This document shows positions 1,927 to 18,385 of a stretch of 33,169 bases of DNA, one piece after another. The notes below the pieces were generated by a model. It saw only the letters and a list, made by a program, of their open reading frames with translations. It searched no databases and was not told the origin of the DNA. The stretch's first letter is position 1. Every line of letters starts with the position of its first letter. The translations under genes and the position numbers were made by a program. Source of the stretch: Hyphomicrobiales bacterium (GTDB lineage Bacteria > Pseudomonadota > Alphaproteobacteria > Rhizobiales > Beijerinckiaceae); assembly GCA_003244015.1 (NCBI GenBank), contig QHBR01000167.1, positions 1 to 33,169 of the forward strand. Reading direction: 5' to 3'.

Positions 1927-2877
1927 ATGGTCAACCCGGCGAAAGAGCCCGCATTTCCACACCGGCATCTGCTCGGGATCGAGGGGCTTTCCGCGCAAGA
2001 CATCAGCTTTCTTCTCGATCTCGCCGAGGCGGCGATCGAAGTGTCGCGCCAGGTCGAGAAAAAGCGCTCGACCTTGCGCGGGAGGACTTTGATCAACCTC
2101 TTTTTCGAGGCTTCGACCAGGACCCAAGCGTCCTTCGAACTCGCCGGCAAGCGTCTCGGCGCCGACGTCATGAACATGCCGGTGGCAACCTCGAGCGTCA
2201 AGAAGGGCGAGACGCTGATCGATACGGCGATGACGCTGAACGCGATGCGGCCCGACATTATCGTGGTGCGCCATGCCCAGGCCGGCGCGGTGCATCTTTT
2301 GGCGAAGAAGGTCGATTGCGCGGTCGTCAACGCGGGCGATGGCGCGCATGAGCATCCAACCCAGGCGCTGCTCGATGCGCTCACGATCAGGCGCAACAAG
2401 GGCAGGATCGAAGGTCTCACGGCCGCGATCTGCGGCGACATTCTCCACTCGCGTGTCGCGCGCTCCAATATATTGCTGCTCTCGGCGCTCGGCGCGCGGG
2501 TGCGCGTTGTCTCGCCATCGACGCTGCTGCCGCCGGGAATCGAACGCATGGGGGTCGAGGTATTCCGCGACATGCGTGCCGGGCTCGAAGGCGCCGACAT
2601 CGTGATGATGCTCCGCTTGCAGCGCGAGCGGATGCAGGGCGGCTATGTCCCTTCGGCCAAGGAGTATTTCCGCTTTTTCGGCCTCGACGAGGCAAAGCTT
2701 TGTTTCGCCAAACCCGATGCGCTGGTGATGCACCCAGGACCGATCAACCGCGGCGTCGAAATCGATTCCGCCGTCGCCGACGGGCCAAGGAGCCTCATCC
2801 GCGAGCAGGTCGAGATGGGCGTCGCGGTGCGGATCGCCGTTTTGGAGGCCCTGGCGCAGCATTTGCCCAATGGCTGA
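1927..2877 (+). CDS. pyrB: Aspartate carbamoyltransferase catalytic subunit
   Basis: [55 protein letters not shown]. Confidence 0.95.
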
Positions 2878-4210
2878 GAGTGAGTTTCGCGTGAAAAGTT
2901 CCTCGACCACCGCCATTGCCCACCGGCCGCTCGTTCTCGTCAATGCAAGGCTGATCGATCCGGCGAAACTCAGCGAGACCATGGGCGGAGTCCTTGTCGC
3001 CGATGGTTTGATCCGCGATTTTGGCCCAGCCATTGCGTCGGCAAATCTTCCCGCCTACGCGCGAATCATCGATTGCGGCGGCGATTGCGTGGCGCCCGGC
3101 CTTATCGACATGTGGGCGTTCATCGGCGAGCCCGGCGCCGAACATCGCGAGACGATCGCGACCGCGACCATGGCGGCGGCGGCGGGCGGCATCACGACCG
3201 TCCTTGCCCGCCCCGATACCAATCCGCCGGTCGACGAGGCGGCGGTGGTCGATTTTCTGTTGCGCCGCGCACGCGATACCGGCCGCGTGCGGGTGCTTCC
3301 CTTGGCGGCTTTGACGGCCGGCCTCGACGGCGCGGAGATTGCCGAGATCGGTCTGTTGCAACTGGCGGGCGCGGTGGCGTTCAGCGATGGCGCGCGAGCG
3401 ATCCGCAACGCGCGTGTCATGCGCCGCGTCATGCAGTACGCCCGCGATTTCGATGCTCTCGTCATCCATTACGCGGAGGATCGCGATCTAGCGGGCGAGG
3501 GCGTGATGAACGAAGGCGAATTCGCCTCGCGCCTCGGCCTTGCCGGAATTCCGCGCGAGGCGGAAGCAATCATGCTCGATCGCGACATAAGGCTCGCGAA
3601 CCTTACCGGCGCGCGCTACCATGCCGCGCTCGTCACGACGGCGCTTTCCTTGGACATTATCGCCAAAGCCAAGGCCGATGGCTTGGCCGTAACCTGCGCC
3701 ACCTCGATCAACCATCTGACCCTCAACGAAAACGACATCGGCGATTACCGGACGTTTTTGAAACTCGCGCCGCCGTTGCGCCACGAAGACGAGCGGCGCG
3801 CGATCGTCGCGGCTTTGGAGTCGGGCCTCATCGACGCCGTCGTTTCGGACCATAACCCGCAGGATGTTGAAACCAAACGCCTGCCGTTCACCGAGGCGGA
3901 AGCTGGCGCGATCGGCTTGGAGACCATGCTTTCCGCGGGCCTGCGGCTCGTTCATTCCGGGGAAATTCCGCTCGGGCGTCTCATTGCCGCCATGACCATC
4001 CGGCCGGCCGAGATCCTCGGTCTGTCGCAAGGAAGGCTTGAAGTGGGCGCGCCCGCCGATCTCATCCGCTTCGACCCCGACGAGCCTTTTGTCGTCGATC
4101 CGGCGAAACTGCATTCGCGCTGCAAGAACACGCCGTTCGACGAGGCCCGCATGGAGGGCAAGGTAAAGCTCACCATGGTCGCGGGCGAGATTGTTTTCGA
4201 GGCCAAGTGA
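2870..4210 (+). CDS. pyrC: Dihydroorotase-like protein (PyrC/PyrX type), HxH metal motif missing
   Basis: Overlaps pyrB by 8 bp. Amidohydrolase fold features: [47 protein letters not shown]. The usual GLIDxHxHxREPG is replaced by [13 protein letters not shown]. Confidence 0.85.
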
Positions 4211-14830: not shown

Positions 14831-14907
14831 GCGCCCGTAGCTCAGCTGGATAGAGCACTAGACTACGAATCTAGGGGTCGGGAGTTCGAATCTCTCCGGG
14901 CGCGCCA
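14831..14907 (+). tRNA. tRNA-Arg (anticodon ACG), CCA encoded
   Basis: Acceptor GCGCCCG/CGGGCGC + G + CCA; anticodon arm CTAGA-CTACGAA-TCTAG; T-loop GTTCGAATC. Confidence 0.95.
14892..14907 (+). repeat. Putative att site copy 1 (3' end of tRNA-Arg)
   Basis: CTCTCCGGGCGCGCCA, identical to 16641-16656. Confidence 0.75.
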
Positions 14908-15169
14908 TTCTGCCACCACTCCAGAACAAAACTGGGCACCGTCCGTCCGGTCTGACCCCAAAAGCGGACGTTAGATGGGGCTGCTACATTGTAGCGCGCG
15001 AAGAAATCGCCAGCTGCAGGGGGGCTCAGTGCTGGATAACCCGAAAACTCCAAGATGGGCGCGGAAATTACTTCAGGGGATTACTTACTGGATCGGCCAT
15101 CGACGAAGCCTCTATGACCAGTACCCACTCGGGGAGTCGGCCTTCGCCGCAGAGTTCTGTAATCTCATC

Positions 15170-15352
15170 TACGCTCAATTATTGGTCGGCGGGACCGGCA
15201 CCGGCAAGACCCACCTTGCAATCGTCCGCAGCGGCTTCCGCGGACGGTTATACAGCGGGTCGATCTGGTCAACCGGCTCGAGACCGAGACCCGTAACGGA
15301 CGGCAGGGCCGGTTCGCCGAACATCTGACGCGCATGGACTTCATCGTCCCAA
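15170..15352 (+). pseudogene. istB: IS21-family IstB ATPase fragment
   Basis: LLVGGTGTGKTHLAI (Walker A) then, after a frameshift, VDLVNRLETETRNGRQGRFAEHLTRMDFIV; both ends missing. Confidence 0.8.
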
Positions 15353-15361
15353 TGAACTCGG

Positions 15362-16289
15362 CTAGCGGTTTGCGTCAGCTCTCGCAGCCCCCGCAAGATC
15401 CTGCGCGGCGATTGCCAGAATCTCGTCGGCGTGAGAAATCGCGATGAAATGCCCGCCATCGGCGACTTCATGCCACACCGCTTCGGGCATCTGCTCGCCC
15501 AGCGGCTTGTTCACCGCCTCGGGTACAAGGGTGTCCGCTGCCCTGCCATAGATGAACTGGCCGATGGATAGCCGTGACGTCGAATGGCCACTCTTGGTAC
15601 AGCATCCGAGCGTCGCTCACGAGGCCTTCGGCTCCTTGCCGGAAACACTCGCGCCCAGACTCCACAATGACGTTCAGCACGTGCTCGTCAGCGAGCGCCT
15701 CGAGATCAGCAGGGCAGCCCGCTTTCAGCAGCCCCTGCTTGTACTGCTCTGGGAACCGAATTGCAGCCACATCGAGCAGGTCATACATGAGCTGGAATCC
15801 CGGACGAAAATGCAGCGCAAGGAAGCCACCCATCGCGTCGACTTTGGACAGATCCTTCGCCGCCCAGTTCGCTCCGAACGAGCCGTAAGACGCGCCGGCG
15901 ATGCTGGTGACGTGCACCAGCCTCGCCGGATCGAGGTACGCCGCTGCCGCGAGCGCCCAGGGGCCGCCCTCAGACCAGCCTGTCACCGCGAATGTATCGG
16001 CGCCAAGAGCGTTGGCTACCGCTTCCAAGTCAGCAGCCCAGCTGGCGAAGGTCCGGTCCCGCTGGGGATCTGATTTGCCCTGGCCAGGCCGATCGACGCA
16101 CACCAATCGCAAGCCAAGCTCACGCGCGCGGGGCTCGAAGACTTTCGCCTCAAGCCGACTGGAGGGCCCGCCGTGGTTGTGCAGTACCAGCGGGCCGCTG
16201 GGGTCCCCGACCTGGAGGTAGACCAGCGACCGATCGCCGATGCTGACTGACCCTTCGCCATGGGCCAGGGCGGTGCTTTTGGCAGCCAT
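15362..16289 (-). pseudogene. Alpha/beta hydrolase with an apparent frameshift near its 3' end
   Basis: HNHGGPSSRLEAKVFEP, VDRPGQGKSDP, GWSEGGPWALAAAAY. The catalytic His region (ADTLVPEAVNKPLGEQMPEAVWHEVADGGHFIAISHADEIL) is in another frame; shift near 15535-15550. RBS GGAGGA before ATG 16289. Confidence 0.75.
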
Positions 16290-16429
16290 TCTGCGTCCTC
16301 CGGCGGGCTCAGGCAGCAACCCTTGTAAGTCGCTTTGGATTTTCTGACTTCTGCAGGCTACTCAGCCGATTCCGGCCGAGTCAAATCAAAAGCTAGTCCT
16401 GCAGGCTGCTCGACCGCCCCGCGTGCAAG

Positions 16430-16580
16430 CGAGTCTTCGCCAAGTGGCGCGATGGTGCCGCTAACCGGGTTCTATGAATGGGAGACCACCGGCAAGCCAA
16501 AGCAGCCGTCGCGGTTCACGATGGCTGACGAACAGCCGCTTGCGCTTGCCGGGTTGTGGGAGTTTATGGCATGCAGCGCG
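16430..16580 (+). pseudogene. Fragment of SOS-response-associated peptidase (SRAP/YedK) gene
   Basis: PLTGFYEWETTGKPKQPSRFTMADEQPLALAGLWE matches the SRAP-type GFYEW...FAGLWE core; catalytic N-terminus and C-terminus absent. Confidence 0.7.
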
Positions 16581-16640
16581 ATTGGGGTGGCTCCAAAATT
16601 ATAGAGCCCATACAATGACATAGCGGTGCCCAGTTTCATC

Positions 16641-16656
16641 CTCTCCGGGCGCGCCA
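16641..16656 (+). repeat. Putative att site copy 2 (direct repeat of tRNA-Arg 3' end)
   Basis: CTCTCCGGGCGCGCCA exact 16/16 match to 14892-14907, plus AGTT at 16632-16635 in register with 14883-14886. Confidence 0.75.
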
Positions 16657-17353
16657 CTAATTTTCATGATTGCTTGAATAAATTTCTGCATACGCCTTAG
16701 CGTATCAGGCTCAGGCTGGGTCGTGTCGCCACCTGGCCGCCACGGCGTAGAATATTCAACAGCTTGGGCTTCTTTGACCTCGGACTTTTTTGGACACAGC
16801 CAAAGTGTCACCATCGCCAAAGGATGTCATGAACTCCAGCATATGGGGCGGGAGCGCCCGATCTCCGCGATGGGGCGAAACCTGGAAGCGAGAGCGCAAC
16901 GCCTCCAACTTGCGCAGACACCGTCTTGACCGGCGCCGGGCTCGATGTCACCTGCGGTCACTATCCCGGCATAATGGGCGAGGAGCGAATCGACCCCGAA
17001 GCCTCGAAGACAATGCGTGGCGTTGAAAGGCCCGGCACGCGGGGCAATCGGCGAGCGGGCCTGGCGCCATGCCACGCGGTTGGCGTTTGTCTCATCAAAG
17101 CCGCATTGCGGAAGCCGGCGGTTCCGCGCCAGCCCCGGAACACGCTGGCGGCGTATCGTTCCAGGTGTCGCCCCGTGGCACCCCCGGCCGAGCGGATTTG
17201 GTGCGATAGATGAACCAATTCGCAAAAACGCGCTTCCGCCGGGATCCTGCCTTTTTGTTTTCGCATTGACAAAATACGAGGACGGTTCAGCTTGATAGAG
17301 CGTTTCGCGCGGATCTCACCTCGCGCCGCGCCGGTTCGACAGGAGAAAACGAG

Positions 17354-18220
17354 ATGTTTCAAAAAGGTGGAATGCACGCCGCCGCCATTTGCGTCTTCCT
17401 TTTTGGAATTTCCGTTCAAGCGTCCGCGGTTCCGCTCTTCTCGCATAAACTGCCGGAGACTACGCCGCTCAAAGCCGTGCCGGTTGTCGTCTTCGGCAAG
17501 AACAGCCGGCGCAGCGTGGAGGAATTTGCGGCCGACCAGAAGCTCGACGCCGCCGAGCTTCGCGCCCGTTTTGCGGGCTCCGGCCTCATCGAATGCGGCG
17601 ATGCGCATGGCGCGGGCCAGCTCACGCTTGCCAATGACCTCGTAACAACCGCGGCCCATGTATTTTTCGACGAAAAGGGCGCTCCGCGAGCAAAGACCTG
17701 CTTTTTTTCCATCGAGGCTCGCGGCAAGGAGACGAGGGTGCCGATCGACCTCGGCTCGATCGTTGCGGGCAGCACCAATCCTTACGCGGTCGCGGCGGTT
17801 CATGACTGGGCCGTCGCGCGTTTGACGCATCCAATCGAAGGGATAACCCCCTATGGCCTTGCCGATGCGACGCGCTCCAACATGCCGGTCGAGTTCGTCG
17901 CGCGCGGCCACATCGACTGGGGCGATGGGCGCAGGCTTTCGATGGAAAAATGCCTCCTGCACGACCAATTGTCGGCCGGCGCGGAAGGAACAAGGGAATT
18001 TTCGTTCGATTGCGAAACCGGGGACGGCGCCTCCGGCGGCGCGCTCGTCATGGGAACAAACAAACCGGCGATCGGCGCGATTTTGGTCGGCTGGCGCAGC
18101 AACAAACCGTTACGCTCGGCGCCGTTTTCGCGATCCCACTATAATTTCGCCGTGACCATCGAAGGGGCTTTCAAGAGAGCCGTCGTTGCCGCCGCCAGCA
18201 AGGTCGTCGTCGCGAAATAG
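17354..18220 (+). CDS. Secreted trypsin-like serine protease
   Basis: Signal peptide; triad contexts LVTTAAHVF (His), HDWAVARL (Asp), CETGDGASGGALV (Ser). Confidence 0.8.
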   Translation: MFQKGGMHAAAICVFLFGISVQASAVPLFSHKLPETTPLKAVPVVVFGKNSRRSVEEFAADQKLDAAELRARFAGSGLIECGDAHGAGQLTLANDLVTTAAHVFFDEKGAPRAKTCFFSIEARGKETRVPIDLGSIVAGSTNPYAVAAVHDWAVARLTHPIEGITPYGLADATRSNMPVEFVARGHIDWGDGRRLSMEKCLLHDQLSAGAEGTREFSFDCETGDGASGGALVMGTNKPAIGAILVGWRSNKPLRSAPFSRSHYNFAVTIEGAFKRAVVAAASKVVVAK

Positions 18221-18385
18221 GCGCCGCTTCGTTGATTGTAGCGCAGGCTGACACGGCGATTGAAGCGCCAACTGTCGTTGCCGGTTTCGACGAGTCGCAG
18301 TCGGTCAAAGCCTCACCGATGGACGGGTCATAATCGTCGACCATCCAGCCAGGCCAGATTTCGGTTAGGTGCTGGACCCGCCGGC

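Follow-up and report, generated by a model that had tools for sequence, protein, structure and literature searches.

In the window, i.e. the whole stretch of 33,169 nucleotides that was analysed, an intact tRNA-Arg(ACG) gene is followed by a short interval of broken genes and a second copy of its own 3' end (Table 1). The last 16 bp of the gene, CTCTCCGGGCGCGCCA, recur exactly and on the same strand, 1749 bp away from start to start, as had been reported in an earlier note on this sequence. The in-register AGTT that the note placed upstream in the T-arm was real as well; it belongs to a match of 75% identity over 36 nt, which reflects the likeness of the left element half-site to the tRNA half-site. 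Just inside the two 16-mers lies a perfect 13-bp inverted repeat (AAACTGGGCACCG and CGGTGCCCAGTTT), which the note had overlooked and which identifies the recombination system (see below).

Table 1. Features of the tRNA-Arg(ACG) locus, in window coordinates, with the basis of each assignment.
Feature	Position	Strand	Basis
tRNA-Arg(ACG), intact target gene; putative attB left half, now within attL	14831..14907	+	ARAGORN; relatives
Left direct repeat CTCTCCGGGCGCGCCA, the tRNA 3' end	14892..14907	+	exact sequence match
Putative P' arm of attL, long-spacer type; includes 13-bp inverted repeat AAACTGGGCACCG (14929-14941)	14908..14941	+	matches LSR 3' ends, with an 11-bp insertion
istB (IS21-family helper ATPase) fragment	15183..15364	+	blastn against annotated istB on plasmids; relatives
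Alpha/beta hydrolase pseudogene	15362..16290	-	Pfam PF00561/PF12697; frameshift read from sequence
SRAP (SOS response associated peptidase) fragment, profile positions 99-138 of 214	16449..16568	+	Pfam PF02586
Putative P arm of attR, conserved AATTATA-N(8-9)-ACAATGACATAGCGGTGCCCAGTTTCATC; includes inverted repeat CGGTGCCCAGTTT (16624-16636)	16596..16640	+	30 copies, alignment
Right direct repeat CTCTCCGGGCGCGCCA	16641..16656	+	exact match; other P arms mostly have CTCTCCGGCGCGCCA here

The 16-mer was not common in the genome, a point that the earlier reading depended on: only these two sites were found in the 3.59-Mb draft (429 contigs), even when one mismatch was allowed. A second-order Markov model predicted 3.4e-6 copies per 2 kb on one strand and 0.013 per 3.59 Mb. 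Since three other, unrelated exact 16-mer repeats occur in this window, which is GC-rich, the weight rests on one copy being the exact tRNA 3' terminus. These other repeats and the base composition could speak for a chance repeat, yet the low expectation and above all the conserved arms flanking both copies (see next section) refute it, leaving chance with a negligible probability.

Outward from the tRNA, the P' arm is followed by about 240 bp without recognisable content, then by the istB fragment, the hydrolase, the SRAP fragment and the P arm. The broken state of the three genes was as previously described; the main frame of the hydrolase spans 15468-16319 on the minus strand and its C-terminal part carries on in frame 15362-15616. 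With a GC content of 0.617, the interval resembles its flanks (0.616 and 0.608). No LSR (large serine recombinase, see below), tyrosine integrase or transfer gene was detected in it, by Pfam on the tested frames and by LSR similarity, in agreement with the earlier statement that no integrase was visible. The remaining reading frames, both in the interval and in its right flank, had no Pfam matches. Farther away, a 34-47-bp stretch at 18254-18301 was 88-94% identical to DNA that, in several relatives and in contig C382 of the same genome, lies some 150-200 bp away from istB genes; it is possibly an IS21-related scrap, far from the istB fragment.

The istB fragment inside the interval could suggest that an IS21-related insertion, or some other duplication, copied the tRNA 3' end downstream. 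Its homology covers only about 180 bp and stops short of the repeats, and 16 bp is, to our knowledge, not an IS21 target duplication length. Moreover, this right end turns up in numerous genomes with different sequences around it, and its conserved P arm contradicts such an origin, which we consider very improbable.

Conserved arms at both ends of the interval

The interval and its right end were searched in relatives and plasmids, and many short matches piled up on positions ~16596-16656. Thirty distinct copies of this right-end motif were gathered from Hyphomicrobiales genomes and plasmids. Their alignment yielded a P-arm consensus composed of an AT-rich AATTATA-like block, 8-9 variable bases, ACAATGACATAGCGGTGCCCAGTTTCATC and then CTCTCCGGCGCGCCA. 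The core of the window copy contains an additional G and thereby matches the tRNA-Arg(ACG) end exactly. Over 68 bp, the right end of the interval shares 86.8% identity with the end of an island on pSymB of S. meliloti. A second P arm was encountered in the same draft genome (contig C367, 386-429), 97.8% identical to that of the window over 45 bp and with unrelated flanks.

Two other interpretations of the P arm were dropped. Most of the small inserts described below carry one inward gene, so a promoter within the arm that would drive inward cargo was considered; a common cargo orientation was sought across the 30 copies and was not found, the longer adjacent ORF pointing inward at only 12 of them. 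The recurrence of the motif at many sites brought an IS or transposon end into consideration, a reading that was rejected in view of the pairing of the motif with LSR genes at tRNAs.

This pairing is seen in S. meliloti ml21, where the P arm bounds an intact island of about 38.5 kb on pSymB (CP140937, ~413.8-452.4 kb). At its other end, a gene annotated as 'recombinase family protein' (WQP05272.1) runs into tRNA-Arg(CCG). The island further encodes a relaxase, a T4CP-like product, a type I R-M system and AbiE, as well as an internal tyrosine integrase, and enzymes of this latter type might thus contribute in some islands. A second intact pair of arms with the same layout, about 36.5 kb apart, was present in another genome (G029). 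At the near end of the intact islands lies a recombinase gene; its 3' terminal part extends over tRNA-Arg and carries the inverted partner of the P arm. These recombinases combine Resolvase, Recombinase and Zn_ribbon_recom domains and are therefore LSRs; five near-complete ones were aligned and displayed 67-79% identity to the first.

Among the best 80 homologues retrieved from contigs of one genome per species, ARAGORN placed a tRNA over the LSR 3' end in 59, indicating that this family targets tRNA 3' ends. The tRNAs were mostly Arg(ACG or CCG), with additional Arg(TCG, TCT), Glu and one Asn, and in many of the remaining homologues the 3' part of a tRNA was present in truncated form. The genome of the window also has a full-length LSR gene of this family (contig C81, L122, 308-1977), which adjoins a tRNA-Arg(CCG) 3' fragment; its similarity spans several frames, due to either frameshifts or draft errors, and it is followed by a 433-aa tyrosine-integrase-like ORF (2103-3401).

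The left end of the interval was recognised from the same genes. Read from the tRNA, the stretch that encodes the LSR C-terminus (GVPSFV) includes GAACAAAACTGGGCAC, which is the inverted counterpart of the P arm. In the window, this sequence occupies 14924-14939 and lies, according to the alignment, 11 bp farther from the tRNA than in LSR-bearing elements, i.e. the P' arm is about one helical turn longer; no LSR coding sequence is left in the window beyond the arm. The terminal inverted repeats are element-specific: CGGTGCCCAGTTT/AAACTGGGCACCG in the window (13 bp, CGGTG.../...CACCG) and AGGAGTGCCCAGTTT/AAACTGGGCACTCCT in S. meliloti (15 bp, AGGAGTG.../...CACTCCT), as would be expected if each pair represented the halves of a single attP.

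The long-spacing type of P' arm was also found in G008 (three places), G009, G013, G265, G333, G443 and plasmid 1 of Nitrobacter hamburgensis. LSR coding similarity ended at the arm in 9 of 10 such arms. G008 displays a complete P-core-P' of the window's spacing type (412876-413420) followed by a 3' LSR part, which is frameshifted with respect to intact genes. An LSR was also sought near the long-type arms of G333 and G443: none lay within ~57 kb downstream of the tRNA in G333, nor within 20 kb upstream and 40 kb downstream in G443, and a complete LSR was never seen beside a long-type arm. Since this spacing type has no complete LSR as neighbour, the exact recombinase that acted on it can only be presumed.

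A probable element remnant at tRNA-Arg(ACG)

The segment 14908-16656 is most probably what is left, in collapsed form, of an integrative element that a large serine recombinase had placed at the tRNA-Arg(ACG) 3' end. Both ends bear the target repeat and one of them an intact tRNA, the P arm is homologous to those of intact islands and the P' arm is inverted with respect to it. What distinguishes the segment from an LSR element is that no LSR gene adjoins attL, and for this reason it is referred to here as a remnant. Its attL and attR are of a type known from other elements, and no recombination or transfer genes were found in it, which makes it a candidate cis-mobilizable element (CIME).

An LSR of the resolvase/recombinase/zinc-ribbon type would have joined an attP, organised as P arm, GGCGCGCC core and P' arm with the arms forming an inverted repeat, to an attB corresponding to the tRNA 3' end. 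Crossover presumably took place within the core. Such a past integration would have generated attL, made of the tRNA, which stays intact, and the P' arm, and attR, made of the P arm and a copy of the tRNA 3' end. The recombinase gene, which in intact relatives overlaps with the P' arm and reads into the tRNA, would then have disappeared through internal loss, and the leftover passenger segment would have decayed. The remnant may have remained mobilizable, should a related LSR be supplied or a new element integrate into one of its ends.

Integration into tRNA genes is mostly carried out by tyrosine integrases, and the earlier note accordingly read the locus as the attL/attR remnant of a tyrosine-integrase element. 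Its att-site reading is kept, since both ends match those of intact tRNA-Arg islands, whereas the recombinase class, judged on the arm sequences, was almost certainly serine. In favour of a tyrosine-integrase island, tRNA genes typically serve as integration targets of integrases (e.g. PMC12884075), and some LSR loci contain incomplete tRNA-Arg fragments that begin close to the anticodon, which suggests that tyrosine elements used these tRNAs too. Yet both arms are those of LSR elements, and neither an integrase of this class nor a remnant of one was found in the interval or beside the tRNA in the frames tested with Pfam, which makes this origin improbable. The tRNA 3' fragments that start near the anticodon loop lie beside LSR arms in L133, L139, L153 and L155, where they are close to the LSR 3' end, and in L128 and L236 (~1655); they look as if the same tRNA had afterwards been split by tyrosine-integrase elements.

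The histidine kinase gene and tRNA-Arg(ACG) occur together in many relatives, and the DNA following the tRNA was different in every relative examined. One of them (G001) carries a decayed LSR element at this very locus, and weaker LSR similarity was detected in two others (G010 and G023). The element in G001 is evidence of the sort that the earlier note had named, a larger island with an integrase, although its enzyme is of another class. A one-copy empty site, also named there, was not found in relatives when 16641-18300 and the kinase-tRNA segment were used as queries. It could not be shown because, in relatives, DNA matching the right flank (from 16888 onward) lies elsewhere, and what follows the tRNA varies from one relative to the next. 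No relative was seen with the interval intact and lacking the repeat.

Small inserts at tRNA-Arg genes

Inserts of 0.8-2.6 kb, either devoid of LSR or with an LSR scrap only, were encountered in four other genomes. Those devoid of LSR are a 1.02-kb insert with an intact methyltransferase ORF, P arm and tRNA-Arg in G013, a 1.18-kb one with an intact AbiV-like (HEPN) ORF and an adjoining tRNA-Arg 3' fragment in G265 (L214/L236), a 1.26-kb one in G008 whose P side lies against tRNA-Arg in reverse orientation, and a 0.82-kb one with a 240-aa ORF in G349, where the P' arm was not recognised. The largest (2.56 kb, G008, 412-415 kb) carries a metallophosphoesterase-like ORF and has kept a 3' LSR remnant. 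The AbiV-like gene between LSR arms is a possible one-gene phage-defence insert. P arms abutting the 3' end of tRNA-Arg, or of a fragment of it, in opposite orientation were observed in L064 (13654-13764) and L224 (1501-1570). The core GGCGCGCC is palindromic, which may let elements insert in either orientation.

Such inserts raise the question of whether the window segment was itself a small non-autonomous cassette between LSR att sites, integrated by an LSR acting in trans and decayed afterwards. The comparable LSR-less inserts with P arm and tRNA-Arg in G013, G265, G008 and G349 argue for it, and so does the arrest of LSR similarity at nearly all long-type P' arms, as if the arm were a unit. 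On the other hand, the window insert holds unrelated gene fragments, as decay would give, no mini-insert with the same content was found in more than one genome, and the partial LSR in the G008 copy shows that most of an LSR can be lost. The unrecognised P' arm in G349 and the mixed ORF orientation at P arms also weigh against it, no conserved cassette architecture having been found. Shrinkage of a large island is therefore favoured over a small passenger moved in trans, and a cassette origin of the window segment is regarded as rather unlikely.

More doubtful still is the broader proposal that Alphaproteobacteria may carry essentially single-gene cassettes of ~0.8-2.6 kb with LSR arms that are mobilized in trans into tRNA-Arg. 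If true, these would be functionally similar to integron cassettes, with a large serine recombinase and tRNA targets instead, and the window would be a decayed example.

Relation to known systems

The kind of element described here is already known; the new details are the arms of this LSR family and the very small size of some inserts. Besides correcting the recombinase class, this analysis provides explicit attP half-sites for an LSR family that uses tRNA-Arg 3' ends in Hyphomicrobiales. These half-sites are useful for mapping islands that integrase-based searches miss, and are candidate integration tools. The analysis also shows that integrase-less mini-islands recur at tRNA-Arg genes, some with defence-like genes (AbiV). 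Tools that map serine and tyrosine integrases to their att sites, tRNA genes included, already exist (PMC12884075).

CIMEs keep attL and attR, lack integration and transfer genes, are products of decay and can undergo accretion when another element arrives (PMC5704250). The remnant in the window shares the att ends and the missing genes, and differs by its very small size and broken passenger genes. Within the same bacterial order, serine recombinases were described on IMEs and an ICE of Mesorhizobium, with tRNA-Arg among the occupied sites; the relevant passages of that report give no arm sequences for comparison (PMC8627217).

A close parallel in organization is found in Dehalococcoides, where islands with the serine recombinase DsiB lie at the 3' end of ssrA, a tRNA-like RNA gene (PMC3146451). 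There too, a direct repeat of the target gene marks the far end, the recombinase lies beside attL on the reverse strand, tandem copies occur, and islands without integration module were proposed to be cis-mobilizable (PMC3146451). These islands differ by their tmRNA target and by a CcrB-like recombinase accompanied by a second small recombinase (PMC3146451), whereas the present family uses tRNA-Arg (also Glu) and a different LSR, occurs in Hyphomicrobiales and includes inserts down to ~0.8-2.6 kb. The S. meliloti ml21 island, finally, has the same core as the window, the same tRNA-Arg target and an LSR at the tRNA end, but it is intact, spans 38.5 kb and displays a P' spacing that is 11 bp shorter.
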